Shown here: positions 1,301 to 16,010 of the stretch, piece by piece
How the letters are laid out: every line of letters starts with the position of its first letter
How positions within the stretch are numbered: position 1 is the first letter of the stretch
Assembly (NCBI RefSeq): GCF_019645835.1
Contig: NZ_CP080998.1
Span: 1,798,001 to 1,862,000 of the forward strand
Reading direction: 5' to 3'
Origin: Mycolicibacterium holsaticum DSM 44478 = JCM 12374
Lineage (GTDB): Bacteria; Actinomycetota; Actinomycetes; Mycobacteriales; Mycobacteriaceae
DNA length: 64,000 nt
The notes under the pieces: generated by a model
What the model saw: only the letters and a program-made list of their open reading frames with translations
Databases searched by the model: none
What the model was told of the DNA's origin: nothing
Made by a program: the position numbers and the translations under genes

Positions 1301-1302
1301 CC

Positions 1303-2952: not shown

Positions 2953-3480
2953 TCAGGAGATCTTCTCCATCCGCACCGGCAGCTCGATGACGACGGGTTT
3001 GTTGACCCCGCACGCACCGCTCGCGCCCTTCGTCACGTTGCGGCCCCCGAAGGTCTTCATGTCCTTGGTCAGCCGGGTGTTGGTGGTGGGGTCGACCCCC
3101 CACAGGATGAACTTCTGATGGCCCAGTGCGAAGGTGCCGTCCGGACACGGGATCCAGTTCGGGATGTCGTGGTCGACGTACCAGAAGTCGTCGAGCCGGG
3201 CCGTGCCGGTCCAACCCCGATCACTCGTCACGGTGCCGACGCATTCGATCGGGCTCACACAATCGCTGGAGACCGTCCAGGTCTCGATCACCGTCTCCTG
3301 GTCGATCAACACCTCGTTGGTCCTGGCCCACTCGCCGTCTGACATCACCCGGTAGGTGCCGTTGAGTTCGACGCCGAAGTTCGACGCGTACGCCGGCGTT
3401 GCCGCGCTTACACTTCCGATCACGACGCCGCTCGCGACAACCGCCGCTGACACCAGGCCCAATGCACCGACTTCACGCAT
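2953..3480 (-). CDS. Exported protein, function unknown
   Basis: A 175-aa protein with an N-terminal signal sequence (hydrophobic residues about 8-30, AYA-like cleavage motif near residue 31). The mature part contains five Cys (including SSDCVSP, IECVGT, WIPCPDG and SGACGVN) and several conserved-looking Trp. It resembles secreted mycobacterial proteins of unknown function. The gene is tail to tail with mceF with no gap: the stops TGA and, on the other strand, TCA abut at 2952/2953. Its promoter is shared head to head with the exported-protein gene at 3559 and contains the operator at 3502-3538, so it is probably co-regulated with the lipid catabolic genes. No enzyme motif is visible. Confidence 0.8.
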   Translation of the reverse strand: MREVGALGLVSAAVVASGVVIGSVSAATPAYASNFGVELNGTYRVMSDGEWARTNEVLIDQETVIETWTVSSDCVSPIECVGTVTSDRGWTGTARLDDFWYVDHDIPNWIPCPDGTFALGHQKFILWGVDPTTNTRLTKDMKTFGGRNVTKGASGACGVNKPVVIELPVRMEKIS

Positions 3481-3501: not shown

Positions 3502-3538
3502 GGTATTTGTCTTCTCTGAAAGCGAGAATTTCGTTGCC
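3502..3538. promoter_or_regulatory. Operator 1 of the GAGAAT regulon (divergent promoter)
   Basis: Reads GGTATT, 3 nt, CTTCTC, 7 nt, GAGAAT, 3 nt, GTTGCC. The layout matches the site at 10017-10053 half-site for half-site, including both outer blocks. It sits between two divergent exported-protein genes whose starts are at 3480 and 3559. Confidence 0.7.
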
Positions 3539-3558
3539 GGGCATGTGAAAATGGCGTC

Positions 3559-3960
3559 GTGCGATCAATCGGCGCAGTGCTCGCTGCCTTGGCAACGCTT
3601 GGCACCGTCATCGCTGCACCGTCAGCGTCGGCTCAGCCACCCCCACCGCCGCCGGCGGCTGAATGCAACGAACCGTCCTGCACGCCCGGCATCGCGCCGA
3701 ACATCGTGCTCGGGTCGTACTGCAGCAACACCACCCACTACGTGTTCGGGGTGACGTCGTGGGGACGGTTGGTGTTCTGCGGGTCACCGCGGCGATACGA
3801 ACCTCGCTGGTTCCGCTCACCGGAGATGCACGGGATCAAGAACGACGGCCAACTGTGTCCGGGGCTCGACGGTGACGTCGCCCAGGCGCCCGACGGCCTG
3901 TTCCTCAGCTGTGTCGGGCGGGACGGCAGATCCGCATGGGAGTACGGCGGCAACGCCTAG
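3559..3960 (+). CDS. Small exported protein, function unknown
   Basis: A 133-aa protein starting at GTG. It has a clear signal peptide (MRSIGAVLAALATLGTVIAA, cleavage near ASAQ), then a Pro run and a compact Cys-containing domain (CNEPSC, SYCSNTTHY, VFCGSP, GQLCPGLDG, FLSCVGRDG). Six or more Cys suggest disulfides outside the cytoplasm. No catalytic motif is recognised. The gene is divergent from the exported protein at 2953-3480 across operator 1, so both are likely switched together with the mce-linked catabolic genes. It converges on the P450 gene with a hairpin between. Confidence 0.75.
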   Translation: MRSIGAVLAALATLGTVIAAPSASAQPPPPPPAAECNEPSCTPGIAPNIVLGSYCSNTTHYVFGVTSWGRLVFCGSPRRYEPRWFRSPEMHGIKNDGQLCPGLDGDVAQAPDGLFLSCVGRDGRSAWEYGGNA

Positions 3961-3971
3961 TTCTCGTCGCC

Positions 3972-4025
3972 GACTCTGCGCACCGATCGCAACTCCCGCG
4001 ATTTGGGTGATCTGTGCGCAGAGTC
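3972..4025. terminator. Long hairpin between convergent genes
   Basis: Perfect 12-bp arms GACTCTGCGCAC (3972-3983) and GTGCGCAGAGTC (4014-4025), with a further inner pairing (CCCGCGATTTGGG region). No T tract. Lies between convergent stops at 3960 and 4040, so it is probably a bidirectional terminator. Confidence 0.65.
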
Positions 4026-4039
4026 AACCAAGGGCCGGT

Positions 4040-5320
4040 TCAGCCCGCGGGCGTGAACTCGATGTTCAATTCGGTGAGACCACGCAGGATGAACGTCGGC
4101 TCGTAGACGTACCGCCGCGCGTCGATCGGCCCGTGCTTGTCCTCGCTGATCGTGATGTCGGCCATCCGGTCCAGGATCCGCTCGATCGAAACCCGGCCCT
4201 CCACCCGCGCCAGCGGGGCTCCGGGGCACGAGTGGATGCCGCGGCTGAACGCGATGTGCTCACGCACGTTGCGCCGATCCAGCTTGAACTCGTGCGGGTC
4301 GTCGAACCGCTGCGGATCACGGTTGGCAGCGCCGGGGCTGACCATCACCGTCGTCCCGGCGGGCACGGGCGTGTCACCGAGAGCCGTTGTCTTGCGGGCC
4401 AATCGGAACACACTTTTCACCGGGCTGTCCATCCGCAGGCATTCCTCGATGAACACCGGAATCAGGCTGCGGTCCTGGCGGAGTTGCTGCTGGATGTCGG
4501 GGCGGTCGCCGAGGATCCGCAGCGCGGCACCGAGCAGTTTGGCGGTGGTCTCCTGGCCGGCGGCGAACAGGAACGTCGCGGTGCGAACGACGTCGTCCAC
4601 CTCCGGAGTGGAGCCGTCGGGGTACTTCGCGGTCGCGATCGAGGTGAGCACGTCGTCGCGGGGTGCTTCCCGCCGCTCCTCGATGTAGGACACGAACTTC
4701 TCGTCGGCCCACGCCAGCGGGTTGGTGGCGATCACCTCGTGATCGAGGTTGCCGACGGCGGTCCCTGGCCGCTCGGCCCCGAACGCCTCGCGGAACTCTT
4801 CGTGGTCGGATTCGGGAACACCAAGCAGGTCGGCAACCACCAGAAGCGAAAACGGCTTGGCGTATGCGGCCAGAAACTCACACTTGCCGTCGGCGATGAA
4901 CTCGTCGATGTGGCGGTCGGCCAGCCGCCACATGAAGTCCTCGTTCTCCTTGAGCCGCTTGGGCGTAAGCAGCCGCGAAAGGATCGAGCGCGCGTCGGTG
5001 TGCAGCGGCGGGTCCATCGTGACCATGTGCTCGAACATCGGGATCTCGGTGCGGTGCTTTTCGATCAGCGGGCCGATGTCGTCGCCCTCGGGAACGAACG
5101 GGATCGGGGTGAACGGGCCCATCACCGCCACGCACGACGAGTAGTTCTCGCTGTCCTTGTAGACGGCGTTGGCCGCCTCCCAGCCGGTGACCGCCAGCAC
5201 GCCGTTGTTGATCGGACAGCACACCGGGTCCTTCGCGCGCACGTGGTCGTAGTACGGGTGCGGGTCGGGCACCAGCGAGGGATCGGTGAAGTAGTCGACG
5301 GAGTCGAAATCGGTGGTCAT
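4040..5320 (-). CDS. Cytochrome P450
   Basis: Soluble bacterial class P450 monooxygenase (426 aa). Visible motifs are the I-helix AAGQETT (about residues 252-258; most P450s have acidic Asp or Glu before TT), ExxR as EECLR (about 291), and the heme loop FSRGIHSCPGAPLAR with Cys365 as the axial ligand. The ATG at 5320 was chosen over the longer in-frame start at 5392 because GGGAGGAA lies 8-9 nt upstream. It is divergent from a TetR regulator across a perfect-spaced 20-bp palindrome (5383-5402). No ferredoxin gene is adjacent. Its place in an mce/CoA-ligase cluster suggests hydroxylation of a lipid or steroid-like substrate; the CYP family cannot be assigned here. Confidence 0.93.
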   Translation of the reverse strand: MTTDFDSVDYFTDPSLVPDPHPYYDHVRAKDPVCCPINNGVLAVTGWEAANAVYKDSENYSSCVAVMGPFTPIPFVPEGDDIGPLIEKHRTEIPMFEHMVTMDPPLHTDARSILSRLLTPKRLKENEDFMWRLADRHIDEFIADGKCEFLAAYAKPFSLLVVADLLGVPESDHEEFREAFGAERPGTAVGNLDHEVIATNPLAWADEKFVSYIEERREAPRDDVLTSIATAKYPDGSTPEVDDVVRTATFLFAAGQETTAKLLGAALRILGDRPDIQQQLRQDRSLIPVFIEECLRMDSPVKSVFRLARKTTALGDTPVPAGTTVMVSPGAANRDPQRFDDPHEFKLDRRNVREHIAFSRGIHSCPGAPLARVEGRVSIERILDRMADITISEDKHGPIDARRYVYEPTFILRGLTELNIEFTPAG

Positions 5321-5382
5321 GTGAAGCGTTTCCTCCCGGAACCCAAGGTTTGTCGCGGTGCACGCGTGTGAGAAACCAAATA

Positions 5383-5402
5383 TGCTGAGCAACTGCTTAG
5401 CA
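5383..5402. promoter_or_regulatory. 20-bp palindromic operator between P450 and TetR genes
   Basis: TGCTGAGCAACTGCTTAGCA is a dyad of TGCTnAGCA half-sites. It lies 63 bp upstream of the P450 start and 90 bp upstream of the tetR start. The position and symmetry fit the autoregulatory site of the adjacent TetR protein. It is unrelated to the GAGAAT operators nearby. Confidence 0.65.
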
Positions 5403-5491
5403 TGGCGGTAGAGTCGTGGTCAAGGGAACAGGGCTCTGCGGCGTCTAACATCTGCGTGTCGGGGCCCGAATGAACTGAGCGGGGGAGTGAT

Positions 5492-6178
5492 ATGGCATCG
5501 GCGCGAAGGATCGGAGCGCCGGAGGCGAAGAACCGGGGCGTGCTGATCGACGCTGCCGAGCAGCTGCTGCTCGAAGAGGGATACGCCGCGGTCACGTCCC
5601 GCCGGGTCGCCGAAAGAGCGGGTCTGAAACCGCAACTCGTGCACTATTACTTCCGCACCATGGAGGATCTGTTCCTCGCGGTGTTCCGCCGCATGGCCGA
5701 GGCGGGGCTGGCCGTGCTGTCGAGCGCCCTGGCGTCGCCGAAACCACTGTGGGCGCTGTGGCGCTTCAGCACCCGGCCGGAGGCGACCCGGCTGACGATG
5801 GAGTTCATGGGGCTCGCCAATCACCGAAAGGCGCTGCGCGCAGAGATCGTCTACTTTGCCGAACGGTTCCGCGAAGAGCAGAACAAGGCGATCGCCGCCG
5901 CGCTGGCCCGCTACGGCGTCGAGTCCAACGACGTACCGCCGGTGGTCTGGACGATGTTCGCGACGAGCGTGTCGCAGGCGTTGGTGGTAGAACAAGCGCT
6001 CGGCATGACCACCGGGCACGCCGAGATTCTGCAGTTCTGTGAGGAGTGGCTACGTCGCCTCGAGGGCGAACCGCCCGATGTCGACGGTGCCGATCACCAG
6101 TTACGGATCGAGCAGAGCGCGCCCTTTGGTCCCGCGTCGGTGGCGACGACGACGCCGTCCACCGCGAGCACGCAGTGA
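5492..6178 (+). CDS. TetR family transcriptional regulator
   Basis: A 228-aa regulator. The N-terminal TetR helix-turn-helix (about residues 16-62) shows AAEQLLLEEGYAAVTSRRVA and GLKPQLVHYYFRTMEDLF. The rest is a helical ligand-binding domain. The ATG follows GGGGGAG at 6-8 nt. It probably represses itself and the divergent P450 gene through the palindrome at 5383-5402. The last 85 bp overlap, tail to tail, the 3' end of the exported-protein gene at 6094-6555; the low-complexity Thr/Ser C-terminus (about residues 202-228) is encoded there and may be a recent extension. Confidence 0.88.
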   Translation: MASARRIGAPEAKNRGVLIDAAEQLLLEEGYAAVTSRRVAERAGLKPQLVHYYFRTMEDLFLAVFRRMAEAGLAVLSSALASPKPLWALWRFSTRPEATRLTMEFMGLANHRKALRAEIVYFAERFREEQNKAIAAALARYGVESNDVPPVVWTMFATSVSQALVVEQALGMTTGHAEILQFCEEWLRRLEGEPPDVDGADHQLRIEQSAPFGPASVATTTPSTASTQ

Positions 6179-6555
6179 ATGTTGGGCGTCTGAGTTGACT
6201 GGCCGCTGGTCGCGGTGACCATGGCCCACTCGTCGGGGTTCGCCAGCACGACGTCGAGCACCCACTGTTGGTCCGGGCCGACACGGGCCTTGGCTTTGGG
6301 GCTGTAGACGTACGGATTGTGGCTGTAGTCCGCCCAATTCGGCGGATCGGTGTCGCGGTAGTAGATCGCGACGTCGAACGGTTGCTCGGCGAACACCGTG
6401 TACTTGACGTTGTGCACCGCGGGCGGCGGTGGTGGCGGCTGCCCGTGCGCGGTCGCGGAGGCAGCCACGACACCGGCACCGGCCATCACCACTGCCGACA
6501 ACAGCGACAGCAGACGGCGTCGGGCGCGGGCGAGACGTACCGGCGGCAACATCAT
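6094..6555 (-). CDS. Exported protein, MmpS-like fold possible
   Basis: A 153-aa protein with an Arg-rich N-terminus, a hydrophobic signal helix (about residues 14-33) and AHGQ before a run of six Pro. The mature domain has VKYTVFAEQPFDVAIYYRDT, NWADYSHNPY and CVLAVDGVVV, with two Cys. The pattern (beta-rich, late Cys-x-hydrophobic-x-VDG) resembles MmpS-type extracytoplasmic domains and widespread mycobacterial secreted proteins, but I do not assign a function. Two Met codons are in tandem at the start (6555, 6552). It overlaps the TetR gene end by 85 bp on the opposite strand, an unusually long convergent overlap. Confidence 0.78.
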   Translation of the reverse strand: MMLPPVRLARARRRLLSLLSAVVMAGAGVVAASATAHGQPPPPPPAVHNVKYTVFAEQPFDVAIYYRDTDPPNWADYSHNPYVYSPKAKARVGPDQQWVLDVVLANPDEWAMVTATSGQSTQTPNIHCVLAVDGVVVATDAGPKGALCSIRNW

Positions 6556-6607
6556 GTCCGAATCCTAGATCGATAGTTTCGCCGAAAGGGCCGAATCGCC
6601 TTGTGCA

Positions 6608-7762
6608 TCAGATGGACAGGATCGTCGCCGATGCGGTACCGGGTGCGCCGTAGACCTGTGCCAACCCCACCCGCGGTGTACCCGGCACCTGACGCTCGCC
6701 GGCCTCCCCGCGCAACTGACGCACCAGTTCGTGCACCTGCCGCAGCCCCGAGGCGCCGATCGGCTCCCCGTTGGCGATCAGCCCGCCGTCGGTGTTGACC
6801 GGCATCGTGCCATCGATTTCGGTGGCGCCGTCGGCCAACAGCTTCTCCTGTTCGCCGTCGGCGCACAGGCCGGTCTCGGCCATGTGGATCACCTCTGCGC
6901 CGGCATCGGTGTCCTGCAGCTGTGCGATGTCGACATCCTCGGGTCCGATGCCCGCCGCCTCGTAGGCGGCCCTAGCCGCATACACCGTCGGCGACGGATC
7001 CTCGTCGAGCGGAGCCGACGTCGCGTGCACCTCATAGGCACCGAACGTGCGTGTCCGAATCTCGCTGGCGCGCACATACACCGGTTTGTCGGTGAACTTG
7101 TGCGCGATGTCGCCGCGGCACATGATCACCGCCGCCGCTCCTTCGTCGGGCGCGCAGAACATGTACTGCGTGAGCGGATAGTTCAGCACCGCCGAGTTGA
7201 GGATCTCCTCTTCGGAGATCGGCTTGCGGCGGAACGCATTCGGGTTGCGCTCCCCGTTGCGGAAGTTCTTGGCGGCCACCTTGGCCAGCGTCACCTGGCT
7301 GATGTTGTGGTCGTGGATGTACTTGTTGGCTTTCATGCCGAAGAACTTGGTGGTGACGAACTGCCCGTTCTCGGCGTACCACTGCGGCAACGCGAGCTTG
7401 GCCGGATCGTCGGTGAACGCGCCGCGCGGATGCTTGTCCAGGCCGATCGCGATGCCGATGTCGTACTTGCCCAGCCGGATGGTGTCGGCGGTCTGCTGGA
7501 TCGCGCTGGCGGCCGTCGCGCACGCGTTGAACACGTTGGTGAACGTGATACCGGTCAGCCCGACCAGGCGGGTGACGGCGTCGGGGTTGGACACCTCGTA
7601 GCTGCCGCCGAAGCCGAACTGGATGTCCTTCCATTCCACGCCGGCGTCGGTGAGCGCGGACTGGATGGCCTCCGCGCCCATCTCCATCGCCGTCTTGTCG
7701 AACCGGCCGAACGGGTGCAGGCCCACGCCGATGATCGCGACTGTGTCTGTTTCGGTCCTCAT
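6608..7762 (-). CDS. Thiolase-fold lipid-transfer (Ltp) protein, probable aldolase subunit
   Basis: A 384-aa thiolase-superfamily protein of the SCP-x/Ltp branch. The first thiolase Cys is present (FNACATAAS, Cys81), but the usual GHPxGASG His is replaced by Glu (NGEPIGASG, Glu333), and the second catalytic Cys region reads QVYGAPGTAS with Tyr371. In this family such substitutions, together with a DUF35 partner, mark retro-aldol lyases like Ltp2, which cleaves 3-hydroxyacyl-CoA side chains in sterol catabolism, rather than true thiolases. The DUF35 gene ends 16 bp upstream, so they form one operon under operator 2. The substrate is unknown; a degenerate thiolase is the alternative. Confidence 0.85.
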   Translation of the reverse strand: MRTETDTVAIIGVGLHPFGRFDKTAMEMGAEAIQSALTDAGVEWKDIQFGFGGSYEVSNPDAVTRLVGLTGITFTNVFNACATAASAIQQTADTIRLGKYDIGIAIGLDKHPRGAFTDDPAKLALPQWYAENGQFVTTKFFGMKANKYIHDHNISQVTLAKVAAKNFRNGERNPNAFRRKPISEEEILNSAVLNYPLTQYMFCAPDEGAAAVIMCRGDIAHKFTDKPVYVRASEIRTRTFGAYEVHATSAPLDEDPSPTVYAARAAYEAAGIGPEDVDIAQLQDTDAGAEVIHMAETGLCADGEQEKLLADGATEIDGTMPVNTDGGLIANGEPIGASGLRQVHELVRQLRGEAGERQVPGTPRVGLAQVYGAPGTASATILSI

Positions 7763-7778
7763 GCGGTCGGGGTCCTTT

Positions 7779-8210
7779 CTAGACCGGCTTGAATGCGAAG
7801 GTGACGACCTCGTTGCCGTCGTCGTCGGTGGTGAACGGCACCATGGTCAGCTCGACGGCCATCCCGAACTCCAGCTTGTCCGGGTCGTTCTCGGTGAGCC
7901 GACCCTCGACGCGAATAACGTCGTCGAGTTGCACCAGGCCCACCCCGAACGGAACGAAGTCCTTGCCGGTGGGGCCTTTATAGGGCGGTCCGGGCGGGAA
8001 GCCCTGCGTCGTCCACGCCACCAGCGTGCCGCGCCGGGGCAACTTGACCTGCGACATCTGGGCGGCGCTGCACTTGGGGCACCGCTGCTGCACCGGGAAG
8101 GCCGTGGCACCGCATGTACCGCAGCTACTACCGATCAGTTGGGGGTTCTCGTCGGGCCACGTCGAGATCTCGGGCGCGAGCGCAATCTGGGTCGACACGT
8201 CGTTGACCAT
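7779..8210 (-). CDS. DUF35 OB-fold / Zn-ribbon protein, partner of the Ltp protein
   Basis: A 143-aa protein with an N-terminal rubredoxin-like Zn ribbon (Cys30, Cys33, Cys44, Cys47; SSCGTCG and RCPKCSA) followed by an OB-fold domain (about residues 58-140). DUF35 proteins bind acyl-CoA and form obligate complexes with Ltp-type thiolase-fold proteins; in sterol side-chain cleavage the DUF35 part of ChsH2 activates Ltp2. It is first gene of the pair and 16 bp upstream of the Ltp gene. The ATG at 8210 has no RBS and operator 2 starts only 4 bp upstream, so the mRNA may be leaderless. Confidence 0.88.
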   Translation of the reverse strand: MVNDVSTQIALAPEISTWPDENPQLIGSSCGTCGATAFPVQQRCPKCSAAQMSQVKLPRRGTLVAWTTQGFPPGPPYKGPTGKDFVPFGVGLVQLDDVIRVEGRLTENDPDKLEFGMAVELTMVPFTTDDDGNEVVTFAFKPV

Positions 8211-8214
8211 AATT

Positions 8215-8251
8215 GGAAATGACGTTCTCGTCCAGAGAGAACAGGTGCTAG
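8215..8251. promoter_or_regulatory. Operator 2 of the GAGAAT regulon (divergent promoter)
   Basis: Reads GGAAAT, 3 nt, GTTCTC, 7 nt, GAGAAC, 3 nt, TGCTAG. It occupies almost all of the 50-bp gap between the DUF35 start (8210) and the SnoaL-like start (8261). A TAnnnT -10-like box (TAGCCT, 8249-8254) ends 6 nt before the GTG at 8261, which suits a leaderless transcript on that side too. Confidence 0.75.
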
Positions 8252-8260
8252 CCTTCCGCC

Positions 8261-8680
8261 GTGTACGCCGACAAAGCTGAGATCGCCGAGGTGCTGGTCC
8301 GCTACGCCACCGGCATCGACTTCAAAGATTGGAAGCTGTTCCGTACCTGCTGGACCGGCGAGGTCGACATCGACTACGGGGACCTCGGCAAGTTCACCGA
8401 CGCGGATGCGTTCACCGAGCTGATGAAGCAGATCCATGACGGCATGGGCCAGACCTACCACCGCATCTCCAACATCGTCGTCGACCTCGACGGCGACCGG
8501 GCCACGGCGAGGTCCTATGTGCGCGCGGTGCTCATGGCCGTGCCCGGTGATTCGAACAGCTGGATCGACGCGCTTGGCCATTACGACGACGAGCTCACCC
8601 GGACCCCCGACGGCTGGCGAATCCACAAGCGGACCACCAACATCGCGCGCGTGATGAGCGCTGCCGGTATCACGTCGTGA
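8261..8680 (+). CDS. SnoaL-like (NTF2-fold) protein
   Basis: A 139-aa single-domain protein with the cone-shaped NTF2/SnoaL-like pattern: an N-terminal helix (KAEIAEVLVRYATGIDFKDW), a central TYHRISNIVVDLDGDRATAR strand region and GHYDDELTRTPDGWRIHKR at the end. Members act as small isomerases, dehydratases or cyclases; many in mycobacterial sterol and lipid clusters are uncharacterised. It starts at GTG with little or no leader, and overlaps the VOC gene by 4 bp (GTGA), so the two are translationally coupled. Regulated through operator 2. Confidence 0.82.
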   Translation: MYADKAEIAEVLVRYATGIDFKDWKLFRTCWTGEVDIDYGDLGKFTDADAFTELMKQIHDGMGQTYHRISNIVVDLDGDRATARSYVRAVLMAVPGDSNSWIDALGHYDDELTRTPDGWRIHKRTTNIARVMSAAGITS

Positions 8681-9198
8681 CCGTGCTGCCAGGGCCGGTC
8701 CGCCAGATCGGCTACGTCGTCACCGATCTCGACAGGGCGCTGGCCAGCTGGCTCGAGCTCGGCGTCGGGCCGTGGTTCGTGATGCGCGGCCTGACGCTCA
8801 CCGCGAGCTACCGCGGCGAACCGTGTCAGATCACGCAGTCGTTGGCGATGGCCAACAGCGGCGACCTGCAGGTCGAACTCATCCAGCAGGAGGACCAGAC
8901 GCCGAGTGTCTTCACCGAGTTCCTGGCGGCCCGCGGTGAGGGGTTTCACCAGATCGCGTACTGGGCAGAAGATTTCGACGCCACCATGCAGGCGGTGTCG
9001 GCCGCGGGCTGGCCGGTGGTGTGGTCAGGCGGTGAGGACGTCGGCACCCGGTTCGCCTACGTCGAGCCGCCGAACTGCCCGGCGAGCGTCGTCGAGATCA
9101 TGGAGCTGACCGAGATCACCGCGGGCATGGCCGAGTTCGTCCGCGACGCCGCCACCGACTGGGACGGCAGCGACCCGATCCGCGCCCTCGGCGGCTGA
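8677..9198 (+). CDS. VOC (glyoxalase/bleomycin-resistance fold) protein
   Basis: A 173-aa vicinal-oxygen-chelate protein with two beta-alpha-beta modules (about residues 5-65 and 85-145). Candidate metal ligands are His in GEGFHQIAYWAED and Glu in ASVVEIMEL; the first-module ligand position, usually His before the first strand, reads RQIGYVVTDL and lacks His. It could be a methylmalonyl-CoA epimerase-like, dioxygenase-like or lyase protein. It is coupled to the SnoaL-like gene by a GTGA overlap, so both probably act on one intermediate. It converges on the enoyl-CoA hydratase gene. Confidence 0.82.
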   Translation: MTVLPGPVRQIGYVVTDLDRALASWLELGVGPWFVMRGLTLTASYRGEPCQITQSLAMANSGDLQVELIQQEDQTPSVFTEFLAARGEGFHQIAYWAEDFDATMQAVSAAGWPVVWSGGEDVGTRFAYVEPPNCPASVVEIMELTEITAGMAEFVRDAATDWDGSDPIRALGG

Positions 9199-9205
9199 CG
9201 CGCAT

Positions 9206-9268
9206 CGCCGAGATAGCAGCCGGGGTCGCGGAATCGCTCGAGTAGCGACCCGGAATGCTATTTCGCGG
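9206..9268. repeat. Long intergenic palindrome, family A copy 1 (probable bidirectional terminator)
   Basis: Imperfect 24-nt arms at 9206-9229 and 9245-9268, containing GACCCGGAATGCTATTTCGC on the right side. The arm shares GGAATGCTATTTCGCGG with the hairpin at 42332-42393, another convergent gap. Lies between stops at 9198 and 9282. Confidence 0.8.
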
Positions 9269-9281
9269 AAAGTGGCGGTGT

Positions 9282-9998
9282 TTACTTGCCGCGGTTCATC
9301 GCCTTGTCGGCGGCGGCCCAGTGTTCGTCGGCGACCCACAGCCGCGCGAACGCGGTGACGGCCTCGCTGGTCGACACGCCGCGCATCACCCGCTTGACCT
9401 CCCCGGCGGGCCGGGTGGCGAGTTGGCGGGCGATGGTGCGCCACGCATCGTCGAACGATTCGCGAGGCAGCACGCGATCGACAAGGCCGACGCGTTCGGC
9501 CTCGGCGGCCTGCAGGATGGTGCCGGTGCCCGCCAACAGCAGCGCCTTGCTGTAGCCGACCAGCGCGGTCAGCCGCTCGGCGCCGCCCCACGCGGGCATG
9601 ATCGCCAGCGTCACCTGGTTGAAGCCGATCTTGATGTCGTCGGCGGCCAACCGGATGTCGGCGGCCACCGCGAACTCCGCGCCGCCGCCGAGCGCGTGCC
9701 CGTTCAGCACGGCGATCGTGGGCGCGGGGAAGTCGGCGATCCGGTCGCAGACCGAGCGCATCCGCCAGGCCATCGCGGCGGCGTCTTCCTCGGTGCGGAT
9801 GGCGGCGAGCTGTTTGAGGTCACCGCCGGAGACGAACGCGCGATCGCCGGCGCCCTTGAGGACCAGCGCGCCCGCCCCCTCGGCGCCGTCGAGTGCCTTG
9901 TCCAATTGCTCCATGGTCTCCGGGGCGATCGCGTTGCGAGCCTCCGGCCGGTCGATGGTGATGACCGCCAACGCGCCGTCCCATTCGAGCTCGACCAT
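9282..9998 (-). CDS. Enoyl-CoA hydratase/isomerase (crotonase family)
   Basis: A 238-aa crotonase-fold enzyme of acyl-CoA metabolism. Seen: ITIDRPEARNAIAPETM, the first oxyanion-hole segment FVSGGDLKQLA, the second NGHALGGGAEFAVAADIR, then the ALLLAGTGTILQAAEAERVG helix region. The ATG at 9998 was chosen: GGAGA lies 8 nt upstream. The longer in-frame ATG at 10049 falls inside operator 3. The catalytic Glu after the second GGG region is not obvious (IMPAWGGAERL), so hydratase versus isomerase or lyase activity is open. It is divergent from an acyl-CoA ligase gene and shares operator 3 with it. Confidence 0.88.
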   Translation of the reverse strand: MVELEWDGALAVITIDRPEARNAIAPETMEQLDKALDGAEGAGALVLKGAGDRAFVSGGDLKQLAAIRTEEDAAAMAWRMRSVCDRIADFPAPTIAVLNGHALGGGAEFAVAADIRLAADDIKIGFNQVTLAIMPAWGGAERLTALVGYSKALLLAGTGTILQAAEAERVGLVDRVLPRESFDDAWRTIARQLATRPAGEVKRVMRGVSTSEAVTAFARLWVADEHWAAADKAMNRGK

Positions 9999-10016
9999 CA
10001 AGCATTCTCCATGTGC

Positions 10017-10053
10017 GGTATTGGCATTCTCAGAATTGGAGAATAGCATCGCC
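10017..10053. promoter_or_regulatory. Operator 3 of the GAGAAT regulon (divergent promoter)
   Basis: Reads GGTATT, 3 nt, ATTCTC, 7 nt, GAGAAT, 3 nt, ATCGCC, an overall 37-bp dyad. It lies between the enoyl-CoA hydratase start (9998) and the acyl-CoA ligase (10116). TAGCAT at 10044-10049 fits a TAnnnT -10 box for the ligase, so binding would occlude the promoter. Confidence 0.75.
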
Positions 10054-10115
10054 TCCGAGTCGCAGGCCGCTGCCCGGGGCCGGCGATGAGCCGCTGGCGC
10101 GAAGAACAGAGGTCG

Positions 10116-11666
10116 ATGCGAAACATCCCCGTCGAGCTGACCAAACGCTACGAGCAAGAGGGGTGGTGGACCCGCGATACGCTCGGCGATCTGCTGGCGC
10201 GCAACCTGGCTGACCATCCCGACACCGGCTTCTGGGTGCACTCCGACATCCGGCCGTTCGCAGGCACTTTCGCCGATGTGGAGCTCAGCGCCCGCCGCAT
10301 GGCCGCCGGCCTGCGCGCCAGGGGCGTCGAACCCGGCGATGTGGTCGCCATGCAACTGCCGAACTGGATGGAAGCCGCCGTCACCTTCTGGGCGGCGACG
10401 TTGGTGGGTGCGGTCGTGGTGCCGATCGTGCACTTCTACGGCCGCAAGGAGTTGGGCCACATCCTGTCGGCCTCACAACCCAAGGTGTTCATCACCGCCG
10501 AGGAGTTCGGCCGGATGAGGTTCGCGCCCGACCTGTGCGCCGACATCCCGGTCGTCGGCCTGGTCGGCGACAACTTCGACGATTTGCTGGCTGACGAACC
10601 GATGGCAGGCACCGTGCCGACCGATCCGGCCAGCCCGGCGCTGATCGCGTTCACCTCGGGCACGACGAGCAAACCCAAAGGCGTCATCCACAGCCACCAG
10701 ACCCTGGGCTTCGAGACGCGTCAGCTGCTGGCGAACTATCCGGAAGACCGCGGCAGGCAGCTGACCGCGACGCCGATCGGCCATTTCATCGGCATGCTGG
10801 GGGCGTTCCTGATCCCGGTCCTCGAAGGTGCGCCGATCGACCTGTGCGACGTGTGGGATCCGGGCAAGGTGCTCAAACTCATGGAGAGCGAAGGGATGTC
10901 GATCGGCGGGGGCCCACCGTATTTCGTCACCAGCCTGCTCGACCACCCGGACTGCACCGACGCGCACCGCGCGCGGTTCACCACCGTCGGGCTCGGCGGG
11001 TCGACCGTGCCTGCGGCGGTGACGCGCAGGCTCGCCGACATGGGCATGTTCGTGTTCCGGTCCTACGGCAGCACCGAGCATCCGTCGATCACCGGATCGC
11101 GGCCGTCGGCGCCGGAGGACAAACGGCTCTACACCGACGGGGATCCCCGCCCCGGTGTGGAGATCCGGCTCACCGAGGAAGGCGAAATCTTGTCCCGTGG
11201 ACCGGATCTGTGCCTGGGTTACACCGACGACGAACTCACCAGACGCGCGTTCGACGACGACGGCTGGTACCACACCGGCGACATCGGCGTGCTCGACGAA
11301 GACGGTTATCTGACCATCACCGACCGCAAAGCCGACGTCATTATCCGCGGCGGCGAGAACATCTCGGCCCTCGAGGTCGAGGAGGTGCTGCTGGGCATGC
11401 CGAGCGTGGCCGAAGCCGTGGTGGTGGCCGCGTCCGATGCGCGGTTGGGCGAGCGGACCGCCGCCGTGTTGCGGATCCGTGAGGGCCATCAGATGCCCAC
11501 GCTCGACGACGTCCGCGCGCATTTTCGGCACACAGGCGTCGCGATCCAGAAGTGGCCCGAAGAACTGCACCGCGTCCCCGAGGGGGAGGACTTTCCGCGC
11601 ACCGCCAGCGGCAAGGTGCAGAAGTTCCGGGTCCGTGAGCACGTGCAGCAGGCGGCCGGCCGCTAG
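10116..11666 (+). CDS. Acyl-CoA synthetase (AMP-forming, FadD type)
   Basis: A 516-aa ANL-superfamily enzyme that adenylates a carboxylic acid and transfers it to CoA. Core motifs: TSGTTSKPKG (A3 P-loop), RSYGSTEHPS (A5), HTGDIGVLDEDGYL (A7) and the C-terminal TASGKVQK with the catalytic Lys. The start at 10116 follows AGAGG at 5 nt; an in-frame ATG at 10086 lacks an RBS. The N-terminus (MRNIPVELTKRYEQEGWWT) resembles cyclohexanecarboxylate-CoA-ligase-like FadDs. Transcribed from operator 3. A hairpin follows the stop. Substrate unknown; a ring carboxylate or side-chain acid fits the setting. Confidence 0.9.
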   Translation: MRNIPVELTKRYEQEGWWTRDTLGDLLARNLADHPDTGFWVHSDIRPFAGTFADVELSARRMAAGLRARGVEPGDVVAMQLPNWMEAAVTFWAATLVGAVVVPIVHFYGRKELGHILSASQPKVFITAEEFGRMRFAPDLCADIPVVGLVGDNFDDLLADEPMAGTVPTDPASPALIAFTSGTTSKPKGVIHSHQTLGFETRQLLANYPEDRGRQLTATPIGHFIGMLGAFLIPVLEGAPIDLCDVWDPGKVLKLMESEGMSIGGGPPYFVTSLLDHPDCTDAHRARFTTVGLGGSTVPAAVTRRLADMGMFVFRSYGSTEHPSITGSRPSAPEDKRLYTDGDPRPGVEIRLTEEGEILSRGPDLCLGYTDDELTRRAFDDDGWYHTGDIGVLDEDGYLTITDRKADVIIRGGENISALEVEEVLLGMPSVAEAVVVAASDARLGERTAAVLRIREGHQMPTLDDVRAHFRHTGVAIQKWPEELHRVPEGEDFPRTASGKVQKFRVREHVQQAAGR

Positions 11667-11668
11667 GG

Positions 11669-11690
11669 ACGTCCGTTGCAAACCGGACGT
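11669..11690. terminator. Short hairpin after the acyl-CoA ligase gene
   Basis: Perfect 7-bp arms ACGTCCG (11669-11675) and CGGACGT (11684-11690) with an 8-nt loop, directly after the stop at 11666 and 4 bp before operator 4. Could be a terminator or an extra regulatory dyad. Confidence 0.45.
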
Positions 11691-11694
11691 TGAT

Positions 11695-11709
11695 GAGAAT
11701 AGGATTCTC
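11695..11709. promoter_or_regulatory. Operator 4 of the GAGAAT regulon
   Basis: GAGAATAGGATTCTC is a perfect 6-3-6 inverted repeat of the regulon half-site, 23 bp before the amidohydrolase start. The second pair of half-sites (from 11717) is poor. TAGGAT at 11700-11705 fits a TAnnnT -10 box inside the dyad. Confidence 0.75.
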
Positions 11710-11731
11710 CCAAGAAGAAAAGGAGTGTTCC

Positions 11732-12922
11732 ATGGGACAACTTTCGCACCGGGTCGACATCCCGTTTCCGCTGTTCGATGCGGACAACCACCTCTACGAG
11801 CCGCCGGAGGCGATGACCAAGTACCTGCCGAAGGATTACAAGGACGTCGTCCAGTACGTCGAGATCAACGGCCGCACCAAGATCGCCATCCGTGGGCAGA
11901 TCAGCAACTACATCCCCAACCCCACCTTCTCGGTGGTCGCCAAGCCGGGGGCGTGGGAGGAGTACTTCAAGTTCGGCAACCCCGACGGCAAGAGCAAGCG
12001 CGAGCTGTTCGGCGAGCCGATGCGGTCCATTCCGGCCTTCTTTGAGCCCGGTCCGCGCCTGGAGTTGATGGACGAACTCGGCCTGGACCGCACGCTGATG
12101 TTCCCCACCTTGGCCAGCCTGATCGAGGAGCGGTTGCGCGACGATCCGGTCGCCATCCACGTCATCATCCACTCGCTGAACCAGTGGCTCGACGAGGTGT
12201 GGGGCTTCAACTACAAGAACCGCATCTTCACCACGCCGGTCATCACCCTGCCGATCGTCGAGAAGGCGATCGAGGAGCTGGACTGGTGCGTCAAGCGCGG
12301 TGCGCGCGCCATCCTGGTCCGGCCCGCGCCGGTGCCCGGCTTCCGCGGACCGCGCTCGTTCGCGCTGCCCGAGTTCGACCCGTTCTGGGAGAAGTGCGTC
12401 GAGTACGACGTGTTCGTCGGCATGCACTCGTCTGACAGCGGCTACTCGCGCTACACCTCCGAGTGGGACGGCGTCGCCCAGGAGATGCTGCCGTTCCAGA
12501 CCAACGCCATGAACATCCTCAACGAGTGGCGTCCGATCCAGGACGCGGTGGCCTCCTGGGTGATCCACGGCGCGCTGTTCCGGCATCCCAAGCTCAAGGT
12601 CGGGATCGTCGAGGCCGGGTCGAAGTGGATGTTCCCGCTGCTGGATTCGATGGCCGAGGTCTACAAGAAGGCGCCAGAGGCCTTCCCCGGCAACCCCATC
12701 GAGGAGATCAAGAACCGCATCCACGTCAGCCCCTTCTACGAGGAGGGCATCGACGACCTGATCAACCTGATCGGCGTGGACCAGGTGCTGTACGGCTCCG
12801 ACTGGCCACACCCGGAGGGCCTGGCCGAACCCACGCACTACGTGACCGCGCTCGAGCACCTGTCGGTCGAGGATCAGGCGAAGATCATGGGCGGTAACCT
12901 GGGCCGCCTCGTCACCGTGTGA
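11732..12922 (+). CDS. Amidohydrolase-2 family protein
   Basis: A 396-aa metal-dependent hydrolase of the amidohydrolase-2 (ACMSD-like) family. The N-terminal metal motif is FDADNHLYEPPE, where the usual HxH reads N-H. The C-terminal part has LYGSDWPHPEG with the conserved Asp. A middle VGMHSSDSGY segment supplies a further His. Such proteins hydrolyse or decarboxylate small molecules; many actinobacterial members with the DNH variant are uncharacterised and sit in lipid or steroid clusters. ATG at 11732 is supported by AAAGGAG 6 nt upstream. It overlaps the next acyl-CoA ligase gene by 4 bp (GTGA), so the pair is one operon under operator 4. Confidence 0.87.
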   Translation: MGQLSHRVDIPFPLFDADNHLYEPPEAMTKYLPKDYKDVVQYVEINGRTKIAIRGQISNYIPNPTFSVVAKPGAWEEYFKFGNPDGKSKRELFGEPMRSIPAFFEPGPRLELMDELGLDRTLMFPTLASLIEERLRDDPVAIHVIIHSLNQWLDEVWGFNYKNRIFTTPVITLPIVEKAIEELDWCVKRGARAILVRPAPVPGFRGPRSFALPEFDPFWEKCVEYDVFVGMHSSDSGYSRYTSEWDGVAQEMLPFQTNAMNILNEWRPIQDAVASWVIHGALFRHPKLKVGIVEAGSKWMFPLLDSMAEVYKKAPEAFPGNPIEEIKNRIHVSPFYEEGIDDLINLIGVDQVLYGSDWPHPEGLAEPTHYVTALEHLSVEDQAKIMGGNLGRLVTV

Positions 12923-14394
12923 CACAACAGCACTGGGAGACCATCGGTGAGATGGTCTTGAGCGCAGCGGACCGCTTCGGCGACGCGGAAGCGGTCGTCG
13001 ACGGTTCGCTGCGCTTGACCTACGTCGAGCTGGCACACCGAATCCGTTGTGCGGCAGGAGCGTTCGCTAAGGCAGGGATCGGCAAGGGCGAGCGGGCGGC
13101 GATCTGGGCGCCGAACTCCGCGGAGTGGATCGTCGCGGCGTTCGGACTGTTGGCCGCGGGCGGCGTGCTGGTCCCGGTCAACACCCGGTTCAAATCCGAG
13201 GAAGCCGCCGACATCATCGGCCGCAGCGGCGCCAAGCTGGTGCTGGTGCAGAAGGATTTCCTCGGCCTGGACTACTCGGTGCCGTTCGCCGAGCCGGGCC
13301 GGCGTCCGCAGGTGATCGACCTGAAATCCGACTTCCTCTCCAGCGGTTCACCGTTCGTATGCGAGGGCATCGACGGCACCGACGTCTCCGACATCATCTT
13401 CACCTCCGGCACGACGGGGCGGCCCAAGGGCGCCAGGATGAACCACCGTCAGACGTTGCGGATGTATGAGGAGTGGGCGACGCTCGCCGATCTGCGCGAG
13501 GGCGACCGCTACCTGATGATCAACCCGTACTTCCACACGTTCGGGCTCAAGGCCGGCCTGGTCGCGTCGTTCCTGCGAGGTGCGACGATGGTGCCCGTTG
13601 CGGCGTTCGACATCGACCGGGTCGTCGACCTCATCGAGCGCGAGCGGATCACCATGCTGCCCGGCCCGCCGACGCTGTATCACTCGCTGCTCGCCGTCGA
13701 GGACAAGGACCGGCTCGCGACGTTGCGGGCCGCCGTGACGGGGGCGGCCGACATTCCGGTGGAGTTGGTGCGCAGGATCCACGACGAGCTTCCGTTCCAG
13801 ACGTTGATGACGGGTTACGGCCTGACCGAGGCCGGAAACGTCACCCTGTCGCGTCCCGGCGATTCGTTCGAAGACGTCGCCACCACCGCCGGGCTTCCGT
13901 GCGAGGGCATCGAGGTGCGCGTCGCCGACGACGGCGAGGTGCTGGTCCGCGGCTACGGCGTCATGGAGGGCTACCTCGACGACCCGGTCGCCACCGCGGA
14001 GGCGATCGACGCCGACGGCTTTCTGCACACCGGCGATCTCGGCGAGTTCACCGAGTCGGGGCGGCTGCGGGTGGTGGGCCGCAAGAAGGACATGTTCATC
14101 GTCGGCGGGTTCAACGCCTATCCCGCCGAGATCGAAGGCTTTCTGCTCGAGCACCCCGGCGTCGCCCAGGCCGCGGTGATCGGAGTTCCCGATGAGCGGT
14201 TGGGTCAGGTGGGCAAGGCGTTCGTGGTGCACAAGGATGGCACCGGCGCGGTAAGCGCCGAGGACCTCATCGCTTGGAGCCGGCAAAGAATGGCGGGCTT
14301 CAAGGTGCCGCGGTATGTAGAGTTCCTCGACGAACTGCCGTTGAACGCCACCGGCAAGGTCATGAAGGACCGCCTTCAGGCCAAAAATGGCTGA
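12919..14394 (+). CDS. Acyl-CoA synthetase (FadD3-like)
   Basis: A 491-aa AMP-forming CoA ligase starting at GTG within the amidohydrolase stop (GTGA overlap). Motifs: FTSGTTGRPKG (P-loop), MTGYGLTEAGN, HTGDLGEFTESGRL and PLNATGKVMK with the catalytic Lys. The length and segments such as INPYFHTFGLKAGL and GGFNAYPAEIE resemble FadD3, which activates the HIP propanoate side chain in sterol ring degradation. Orthology cannot be claimed from this alone. Its coupling to the amidohydrolase suggests consecutive steps: hydrolysis to a free acid, then CoA activation. Confidence 0.9.
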   Translation: MTQQHWETIGEMVLSAADRFGDAEAVVDGSLRLTYVELAHRIRCAAGAFAKAGIGKGERAAIWAPNSAEWIVAAFGLLAAGGVLVPVNTRFKSEEAADIIGRSGAKLVLVQKDFLGLDYSVPFAEPGRRPQVIDLKSDFLSSGSPFVCEGIDGTDVSDIIFTSGTTGRPKGARMNHRQTLRMYEEWATLADLREGDRYLMINPYFHTFGLKAGLVASFLRGATMVPVAAFDIDRVVDLIERERITMLPGPPTLYHSLLAVEDKDRLATLRAAVTGAADIPVELVRRIHDELPFQTLMTGYGLTEAGNVTLSRPGDSFEDVATTAGLPCEGIEVRVADDGEVLVRGYGVMEGYLDDPVATAEAIDADGFLHTGDLGEFTESGRLRVVGRKKDMFIVGGFNAYPAEIEGFLLEHPGVAQAAVIGVPDERLGQVGKAFVVHKDGTGAVSAEDLIAWSRQRMAGFKVPRYVEFLDELPLNATGKVMKDRLQAKNG

Positions 14395-14466
14395 GCACAA
14401 GCACAGCCCGTAAACAGCATTTCCGCAGGACACCCGGCCTGGTCGGGAGCCCCGGAGGCGGGTATC

Positions 14467-14503
14467 GTCGCGGCGATACTCAAAAATTGATAATCGCATT
14501 CTC
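14467..14503 (+). promoter_or_regulatory. Operator 5 of the GAGAAT regulon
   Basis: ATACTC (14476-14481), 7 nt, GATAAT (14489-14494), 3 nt, ATTCTC (14498-14503). The order and spacing equal those of operators 1-3. GATAAT resembles a -10 hexamer, and the site ends 32 bp before the Mce-associated gene start at 14536. Confidence 0.68.
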
Positions 14504-14535: not shown

Positions 14536-15357
14536 GTGCCGTCATTCAGGCGCCGGGCATCGGCGGGCGACACAGATCGCGTCGAGCAGGCACCGAACCA
14601 GCCGTCCGTCGAAGCGACCACAGCGCTGACCCTCGCCGAGCAGGCCGAGGCGCAGGCCGCCGAGGCCGAGGCCGTCGCCGAGGCGGCGCGCGCCCGGGCC
14701 CGCGCAATCCGGCTGCGCCAAGAAGCCGAGCAGGCCGCGGCGCAGGCCCGCGAGCACGAGGCCGACGGCGAGCCCGGTCCGAGCGAGGACGTCGAAATGG
14801 CCGAGGAGGTGGCCGGCGACGAGACCGGGGATGAGCCGCAACCGCCGCCCGCCGGCTCCGGTCGGCGCTGGGGCCGCATTCTCAAAGCGGTCGCGATGTC
14901 GTTGGCCATCCTGTGCACGGGTGCACTGCTGGCCGCCAGCGGCTACATGGTTCATCAGCAGCGCAAGGCGGCCGACCAGCAGAAGCTGCAGGCCGAATAT
15001 GCCGCGGCGGGCCGGCAGAGCGTGGTGACGTTGATGTCATTGGATTTCAACAACGCCGAAGCGGACGTACAGCGCATCATCGAGAACTCGACCGGCCAGT
15101 TCAAAACGGACTTCGAGGACCAGGCCAAGGACTTCGTCCAGGTCGCCAAGGATTCGAAGGTGGTCACCGATGTCACGGTGAACTCCACCGCCGTGGAGAA
15201 GATGAGCCAGGACTCTGCGGTGGTGTTGGTGGCGGCCACGTCGCGGGTGACCAACGCCGCAGGCGCTCAGCAAGAGCCGCGCGCGTGGCGGTTGGCCGTC
15301 GACCTGCAAAGAGACGGCGACCAGATCAAGATGTCGAAAGTCGAGTTCGTACCGTGA
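14536..15357 (+). CDS. Mce-associated membrane protein
   Basis: A 273-aa protein. An Ala/Glu-rich, probably coiled-coil N-terminus (about residues 30-75) and an acidic linker precede one transmembrane helix (LKAVAMSLAILCTGALLAAS, about 116-135) and an extracytoplasmic NTF2-like domain with the VVTLMSLDFNNAEADVQRI segment typical of Mce-associated (Mas) proteins. These accompany mce operons and help stabilise the importer. GTG start with GAGGAGG 5 nt upstream. Overlaps the next Mas gene by 4 bp. Unusually, it is not behind mceF but 11.6 kb away, under operator 5. Confidence 0.88.
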   Translation: MPSFRRRASAGDTDRVEQAPNQPSVEATTALTLAEQAEAQAAEAEAVAEAARARARAIRLRQEAEQAAAQAREHEADGEPGPSEDVEMAEEVAGDETGDEPQPPPAGSGRRWGRILKAVAMSLAILCTGALLAASGYMVHQQRKAADQQKLQAEYAAAGRQSVVTLMSLDFNNAEADVQRIIENSTGQFKTDFEDQAKDFVQVAKDSKVVTDVTVNSTAVEKMSQDSAVVLVAATSRVTNAAGAQQEPRAWRLAVDLQRDGDQIKMSKVEFVP

Positions 15358-16010
15358 CCGTTGATGAGGACGCAGACGTGACGGCCGCCGAGCCCGACAC
15401 CGCCGAGGCCACCGACACCGCCGAGGTCGCCGAGCCCACGGAGGCGGTGGAGCCCACGGAGGCGGTGGAGGCCACCGACGAAAAGCCCGCCGAACCCGGT
15501 GCCGTCCGGCGGTCGTGGCGCGCTGTGCGCCGCCATCTGGGCGTCATCCTCGTCACCGTGGCGCTCGTCGCGTCGGCCGGCGCGGCCGTCGGGATTTACT
15601 TCACCTTGTACCGGCCCACCCAGCAGACCGACGCGGCCGCGACCAACACCGTGTTGGAGGCCGCCAAGAACGGCACCGTCGCGATGCTGTCGTACTCGCC
15701 GGACACGCTCGACGAGGATTTCGCGGCGGCGAAGTCGAACCTCACCGGCGACTTCCTGTCGTACTACGACCAGTTCACCAGCCAGATCGTCCGGCCGGCC
15801 GCGACGCAGAAGAACGTCAAGACGTCGGCGGCGGTGGTTCGGGCCGCGGTAGCCGAGATGCACCCGGACTCCGCCGAAGTGCTGGTGTTCGTCAACCAGG
15901 TGACGACCAGCAAGGAGAACCCGGACGGCGCGTTCGCCGCCAGCAGCGTCAAGGTCGGCATGCAGAAGATCGACGGCCGCTGGCTGATCGCTCAATTCGA
16001 TCCGATCTAA
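15354..16010 (+). CDS. Mce-associated membrane protein, second copy
   Basis: A 218-aa protein starting at GTG inside the stop of the preceding Mas gene (GTGA). An acidic N-terminal stretch contains repeated PTEAVE and TAEV/TAEA motifs, followed by a basic patch, one transmembrane helix (LGVILVTVALVASAGAAVGI, about residues 61-80) and an extracytoplasmic domain (VAMLSYSPDTLDEDFAAAKS and a C-terminal RWLIAQFDPI) typical of Mas proteins. Paired Mas proteins of this kind usually follow mceF. Here the pair forms a separate transcription unit, probably serving the mce operon at the window start. Confidence 0.87.
   Translation: MTVDEDADVTAAEPDTAEATDTAEVAEPTEAVEPTEAVEATDEKPAEPGAVRRSWRAVRRHLGVILVTVALVASAGAAVGIYFTLYRPTQQTDAAATNTVLEAAKNGTVAMLSYSPDTLDEDFAAAKSNLTGDFLSYYDQFTSQIVRPAATQKNVKTSAAVVRAAVAEMHPDSAEVLVFVNQVTTSKENPDGAFAASSVKVGMQKIDGRWLIAQFDPI

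Follow-up and report, generated by a model that had tools for sequence, protein, structure and literature searches.

The stretch analysed here, which we call the window, comprises 64,000 nucleotides of the 5.62-Mb genome of Mycolicibacterium holsaticum DSM 44478 (G000:C1:1798001-1862000). Five of its promoters carry inverted repeats built from the half-sites GAGAAT and ATTCTC, and these sites are very probably, judging from sequence evidence, the operators of one TetR-family regulator that acts as a switch across a catabolic island and is encoded at genome positions 1,709,349-1,710,005 (-). An earlier note on this DNA had described the five operators as intergenic, with three in divergent promoters, and each of these points was confirmed. 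Sites 1-3 lie between divergent genes, and sites 4 and 5 lie between co-directional genes. Positions below are those of the window unless the genome is named, and dyads are scored by matches out of 12.

3502..3538, site 1: two dyads 22 bp apart (8 and 9 of 12), between the divergent genes 2953-3480 (-) and 3559-3960 (+)
8215..8251, site 2: a weak two-dyad site (9 and 5) with strong inner half-sites, GTTCTC-N7-GAGAAC, between a DUF35 gene (-) and a SnoaL gene (+)
10017..10053, site 3: two dyads (9 and 9) containing ATTCTC-N7-GAGAAT with 0 mismatches, between an enoyl-CoA hydratase gene (-) and a CoA ligase gene (+)
11695..11709, site 4: one perfect dyad, GAGAAT-AGG-ATTCTC, centred 30 bp before the start of an amidohydrolase gene
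14467..14503, site 5: two dyads (6 and 11), before the gene pair 14536-16010

The shared motif and its reach

The basic unit of these sites is the 15-bp dyad GAGAAT-N3-ATTCTC. When 66 sites from seven genomes, each with no more than one mismatch, were combined into a profile, it showed this dyad and, 7 bp further on, a faint trace of the next half-site. Near strong dyads, the best neighbour offset was -22 bp (mean of 5.5 matches vs. an average of 2.8, z 6.8); the excess at +22 was smaller (3.8). When pairs were counted in the promoters of seven genomes, with at least 6 matches in both units, a sum of at least 16, and offsets from 15 to 59, offset 22 yielded 87 pairs, compared to 2-40 at other offsets (36 at 21 and 40 at 24). 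Within the M. holsaticum genome, the same offset gave 14 pairs vs. 0-4 elsewhere. This peak indicates that dyads are paired at a fixed helical spacing, though site 4 is unpaired: its second unit scores 6/12 and overlaps the ribosome-binding region, making it effectively a single dyad. A third, weak unit, starting at 9995, may be present in site 3. Because of the peak at 22, we read the ATTCTC-N7-GAGAAT core as the gap between adjoining dyads. The layout in the earlier note thus stands as far as two dyads 22 bp apart are concerned, while its N7 pair is not the unit itself.

To score whole sites, we compared each position with a template of two 15-bp dyads at 22-bp spacing, which has 24 informative positions, and sites 1-5 reached 17, 14, 18, 18, and 17, respectively. 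Five window positions scored 16 or more, vs. 0.24 expected, and two scored 18, vs. 0.0 expected (200 shuffles). Of these five, the position at 63040 (score 16) falls within a gene and was not counted as an operator. With up to two mismatches, ATTCTC-N7-GAGAAT occurred five times in the window, once per site, vs. 0.59 expected from dinucleotide shuffles. The motif was also far from equally frequent in coding DNA: a two-dyad score of at least 16 was found at 115 of 100,222 intergenic positions vs. 3 of 627,321 coding positions, and a single-dyad profile score of at least 8 was found 116 times per 100 kb of intergenic sequence vs. 1.6 in coding sequence.

Each of the five sites had counterparts before orthologous genes in related genomes. 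Site 1 has related sites in G052 (15/24) and G147 (14/24, in another register) and was missed in G085, where the best score was 12/24. The inner half-site pair of site 2 is kept in G052, G099, and G147. The 9 + 9 arrangement of site 3 recurs in G052 and G147, with 10 + 10 in G045 and 5 + 10 in G099. The site 4 dyad is centred 30-33 bp before the amidohydrolase start in 5/5 orthologs (G052, G147, G099, G085, and G045). The 6 + 11 arrangement of site 5 is repeated in G052 and G147, with 13/24 in G099, and this site was missed in G085 (best 11/24).

Across the whole genome, the exact dyad GAGAAT-N3-ATTCTC occurs six times, always within 1,632,397-1,809,709. We also scanned the genome with R1, a sequence model of 43 positions for which 45 of the 108 collected sites were used. 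At an E-value of 10 or better there were 24 matches, 21 of them within 1,627,849-1,812,504, an island of ~185 kb that makes up 3.3% of the genome. This catabolic island ends within the window, and most of the regulon lies outside the window. Window sites 1, 3, and 5, which were part of the R1 training set, scored E-values of 0.015, 0.019, and 0.15, and sites 2 and 4 were recovered from outside the training set (0.24 and 0.55). Two of the three matches beyond the island fall on one two-dyad site at 3,394,889-3,394,927, between two divergent luciferase-like monooxygenase genes that are probably an extra member of the regulon, and the third is a weak match at 5,137,787 (E 7.3).

A looser genome-wide search, of the kind suggested in the earlier note, was dropped as evidence. 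With two mismatches, it returned 45 N7 matches and 52 dyads, vs. 12 and 6 for the reversed pattern, and the shuffle rate in the window predicts ~52 N7 matches. The N7 count is not above that rate, so the basis of the genome-wide claim is instead the profile scan together with the exact dyads and their conservation.

The candidate regulator and its rivals

The earlier note had recommended looking for a linked TetR gene, and one with an exact upstream dyad was found ~88 kb upstream of the window.

Genome 1,709,349-1,710,005 (-): TetR-family protein of 218 amino acids

The protein belongs to the TetR family by a single TetR_N match (31.2 bits, cut-off 24, residues 34-79). We collected the best 80 TetR loci of 411 relatives, with one genome per species. 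These loci were 84-94% identical and all titled Mycobacterium, Mycolicibacterium, or Mycobacteriaceae. In 80/80 loci, the TetR gene was preceded at 90-170 bp by an exact dyad, accompanied in at least 78 of them by a partner dyad of at least 7/12 at 22 bp, and 67/80 loci had a dyad of at least 10/12 just after the gene. Exact dyads numbered 96 in these loci, vs. 0 for the reversed pattern. The arrangement extends to five other genera, where 10/10 genomes had an exact dyad 130-153 bp upstream of the TetR gene and 8/10 had a 9/12 partner at 22 bp. Among the nine TetR genes of the island, this was the only one with a strong upstream site (21/24; others 10-14). A search of plasmids gave no match to this protein. 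Second copies with 58-62% identity were seen in G022, G096, G109, and G121, and closer ones in G146, G164, G169, G210, G214, G227, G242, and G271; in genomes with two copies, the regulon may be split.

The dyads and this gene also occur together across genomes. We used a family set of 151 genomes (TetR at E 1e-30) and a genus set of 148 genomes (TetR at E 1e-50), in which 33 and 122 genomes, respectively, carried the TetR gene. Exact dyads were found in 32/33 carriers of the family set (159 dyads) vs. 9/118 non-carriers (9 dyads), a contrast with a Fisher value of 1.8e-23 that overstates the significance, as related genomes are not independent. In the genus set, 120/122 carriers had exact dyads vs. 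2/26 non-carriers. The reversed pattern was absent from the 151 family genomes and matched once in the genus set (G242). In the family set, no genome with two or more dyads lacked the TetR gene. Together with the exact dyads, the profile scan, and conservation, this co-occurrence supports the single shared regulon that the earlier note had put forward.

It is improbable that the sites are instead bound by another TetR of the island, either the one within the window (5492-6178) or the one at genome 1731558-1732175. Both belong to the island and mostly occur where it does (at E 1e-40, in 28 and 27 of the 151 genomes). However, the window TetR is absent from G031, G045, G135, and G082, and the 1731558 TetR from G031, G121, and G082, all of which keep 2-6 dyads, and G108 has the window TetR without dyads. 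Moreover, the best dyad pairs upstream of these two genes score 14 and 11 of 24, vs. 21 for the candidate.

A comparably small chance remains that the dyads are bound by a non-TetR activator or repressor and that the TetR gene is just one of its targets. Sites flank the TetR gene, as expected for a target. Our profiling across genomes covered three island TetRs, and the candidate may itself simply be under the control of a different regulator encoded in the island. Against this, the near-perfect tracking of one gene by the dyads would require a second regulator of identical distribution, and it is common for TetR proteins to control their own genes as well as adjacent ones (PMC3920632).

The earlier note had raised a double TetR protein such as Mce3R as an alternative to two cooperating TetR dimers, reading the paired dyads as one unit. 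The TetR part of that suggestion is probably right, and the Mce3R part is very unlikely. In a TetR_N scan of 150 of 237 candidates, which gave at least 140 matches at E 0.01, at least five open reading frames carried a pair of TetR_N matches in the same frame (near 3312142, 3471867, 4258452, 4320467, and 4890101), but all five are outside the island and the profile scan placed no site near them. Mce3R of M. tuberculosis is reported in PMC11667970 to bind 25-bp non-palindromic sites 53 bp apart. By contrast, our candidate has one TetR_N match, and the sites are 15-bp palindromes with centres 22 bp apart.

Finally, a chance or compositional AT-rich promoter motif with no shared regulator has next to no probability: it would suit site 2 alone and the genome-wide N7 count, yet it is at odds with the island confinement of the exact dyads (6/6), the promoter/coding contrast, and the conserved positions, and it is already contradicted by the co-occurrence counts.

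Several observations do weigh against assigning the sites to the 1,709,349 TetR. Site 2 taken alone (14/24) is within chance, with 14 window positions reaching 14 vs. 7.7 expected, and we accepted it because of its conservation in three relatives. Training of R1 included some sites from the same genome, three of them from the window, and orthologous sites were counted repeatedly in the intergenic/coding and offset figures, adding to the non-independence noted for the Fisher value. G098, G200, and G230 carry the TetR gene but no exact dyad. The looser pattern GAGAAY-N3-RTTCTC was present in 100/151 family genomes, including TetR-negative ones (up to five each), and is therefore less discriminating than the exact dyad. 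The structure model of the protein is of modest quality, with a pLDDT of 74.6 and a pTM of 0.60, and its matches reach TM scores of 0.4-0.6 with a root-mean-square deviation of about 9 Å. The earlier note had also taken overlap with -10-like boxes as a sign of repression, and this point did not hold up: within the dyads, TANNNT was oriented toward vs. away from the gene in 11 vs. 13 plus-only sites and 4 vs. 5 minus-only sites, with no bias toward the downstream gene.

Genes of the window and the island

The genes around the window operators are as follows. Genes were called with a simple caller, and its wrong calls were corrected by hand: a plus-strand open reading frame over the enoyl-CoA hydratase gene (9321-10046) and the starts of the SDR near genome 1637449, the mutase at genome 1627183, and the DUF35 gene of G147.

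20..2952 (+): last two Mce genes (MlaD/Mce4_CUP1, Pfam) of a yrbE/mce operon
2953..3480 (-): small protein of 175 amino acids with a signal-peptide-like N-terminus (by eye) and no Pfam match
6608..7762 (-): thiolase/lipid-transfer-like protein
7779..8210 (-): DUF35/ChsH2-like OB-fold partner
8261..8680 (+): SnoaL-like protein
8677..9198 (+): VOC/glyoxalase-like protein
9282..9998 (-): enoyl-CoA hydratase
10086..11666 (+): acyl-CoA ligase, start at 10086 or 10116
11732..12922 (+): amidohydrolase (Amidohydro_2)
12919..14394 (+): FadD3-family acyl-CoA ligase (NF005801, 745.8 bits, cut-off 657), start at 12919 or 12952
14536..16010 (+): gene pair 14536-15357 and 15378-16010, no Pfam match; "Mas pair" is an earlier reader's label

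A tandem repeat at 1170-1284 (27-bp unit, 4.3 copies, 97% matches) lies at the 3' end of one Mce gene, 20-1300. The window also encodes a type I fatty acid synthase of 3079 amino acids with Pfam FAS domains (21697-30936), a short way past the downstream edge of the island.

Besides its two mce operons, the island encodes oxygenases of the P450, Rieske, and luciferase-like types, a B12 acyl-CoA mutase, and several acyl-CoA dehydrogenases and thiolases. Pfam support was obtained for the earlier of the two mce operons, a hydratase, a thiolase, a ferredoxin, and the FAS-I gene. Outside the window, the following genes or units adjoin regulon sites:

Genome 1627183-1629887 (L016:7183-9468 and 9468-9887): large and small subunits of a B12-dependent acyl-CoA mutase (TIGR00641)
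Genome 1639444-1640325: MeaB chaperone gene, after a thiolase gene
Fer2 ferredoxin gene with a divergent AMP-ligase/dehydrogenase/hydratase unit
Acyltransferase gene with an epimerase-like gene
TesB-like thioesterase gene
TetR gene with divergent acyl-CoA dehydrogenase/hydratase genes
CMD/Rieske-oxygenase/amidohydrolase/SnoaL/dehydrogenase unit with a divergent amidohydrolase gene
P450 gene with a ferredoxin gene
Another amidohydrolase gene with a divergent dehydrogenase gene
Aldehyde dehydrogenase/CoA-transferase/DUF35/thiolase unit running into the yrbE/mce operon: two-dyad promoter site at 1,786,123, aldehyde dehydrogenase start at 1786199

Many of these sites are also conserved. The TetR promoter dyad at 130 bp was found in 6/6 relatives, the site before the ligase at 10116 in 4/4, the Fer2 site in 6/6, the ligase site in 5/5, and the mutase site in 4/4. 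The thiolase-MeaB site was present in 5/6 orthologs found and missing in G045. The dehydrogenase divergent to the TetR gene had an in-range site in just 2/6 relatives; in other genera, another dehydrogenase gene often stands between the two.

The link to mce genes drawn in the earlier note is borne out by the aldehyde dehydrogenase unit, which precedes the operon ending at 2952 and whose site at 1,786,123 is kept in 4/4 relatives for which the retrieved sequence contained an ortholog. Judging by the order and spacing of the genes, this operon is probably on one transcript with the aldehyde dehydrogenase gene. The second mce operon of the island (~1,679,029-1,686,559) gave MlaD/Mce4_CUP1 matches in the four genes tested by Pfam, and no site was found before it.

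The CMD/Rieske unit of other genera adjoins an ABC importer of the branched-chain-amino-acid type. In G022, the genome in which Pfam was run, this importer (L162:11205-16366) consists of a binding protein, a fused permease, and two ATPases, and open reading frames of similar lengths stand beside the unit in G031, G095, G096, G109, and G119. It is possible that the transporter type has been swapped there, with an ABC importer in place of Mce.

Proposed mechanism and comparison with known systems

TetR proteins usually repress their targets and are released by a ligand. In our proposed mechanism, a TetR dimer would most likely bind each 15-bp dyad, and a second dimer would bind the adjoining dyad 22 bp away, about two helical turns and therefore on about the same face of the DNA, perhaps cooperatively. 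Weak outer half-sites would be tolerated when the inner ATTCTC-N7-GAGAAT is good because the second dimer sits beside the first. A candidate operator probe for binding by the predicted regulator is GAGAATAGTATTCTC. We infer that the TetR probably represses promoters over the ~185-kb island, and thereby Mce uptake and the CoA-dependent breakdown of a hydrophobic substrate; many sites lie ~20-80 bp before start codons, which fits repression. Release would come from a pathway intermediate, probably an acyl-CoA, as suggested by the enzyme content of the island and by the matches of the structure model, among which YvdT of B. subtilis comes first and acyl-CoA-binding FadR repressors also appear, a weak hint when taken by itself.

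The mutase and MeaB genes adjoin sites, which suggests a carbon-skeleton rearrangement in the pathway; family models were mostly sub-threshold and named no substrate. On balance, we lean slightly toward a broader reading, in which the conserved TetR is the master switch of the whole island, old within Mycobacteriaceae, and couples Mce-type import to the degradation, via CoA-dependent steps with B12 mutase, Rieske, and P450 enzymes, of one class of hydrophobic compounds. Such a regulon would join an mce operon (perhaps the second too), several families of uncertain role, and a B12 mutase in one probably inducible pathway. The identity of the inducer would then point to the substrate and hence to the cargo of the extra Mce transporters.

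Among the closest known systems are the cholesterol regulators KstR and KstR2, mycobacterial TetR proteins with palindromic operators over a large lipid-catabolic gene set that includes an mce operon. Their half-sites and gene set differ from those of the island regulon, and KstR resembles the candidate TetR only weakly in sequence (E 0.018-0.026). FadR-type acyl-CoA-responsive repressors of Bacillus and Thermus, which are among the nearest structures, are about 16-22% identical to it (E 4.4e-7 for 5gpa, 0.00028 for 3ang, and 0.0035 for 3whb).

The island regulon also resembles that of BkaR (MSMEG_4718/Rv2506), a conserved mycobacterial TetR with two dyads between divergent genes and acyl-CoA enzyme targets. 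According to PMC3920632, however, the BkaR operator core is GTTA(N)T(N4)A(N)TAAC and 10 genes are directly controlled in M. smegmatis, whereas our 66-site profile reads GAGAAT-N3-ATTCTC and the target set is island-wide. Mce3R is likewise of the TetR type and controls an mce operon together with genes of lipid metabolism, but it is a double TetR of 406 amino acids with asymmetric 25-bp operators (PMC11667970), in contrast to the single-domain protein of 218 amino acids and the palindromic dyads described here.

What we describe is a large, conserved regulon, very probably under the control of one TetR protein. In line with the earlier note, which knew of no regulon with this layout, searches with motif strings and topic words, which mostly did not cover subscription journals, gave no description of the TetR or the motif among the papers listed. 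PMC4482099 shows motif logos for TetRs of M. tuberculosis, 30 in all, in picture form, and an orthologous motif may be among them. The same paper describes TetR proteins as repressors released by ligand and reports that QacR of S. aureus binds a 28-bp palindrome as a tetramer. QacR thus offers a precedent for more than one TetR dimer on one long operator, which is predicted for the island sites, but its single palindrome differs from the two separate 15-bp dyads found here.

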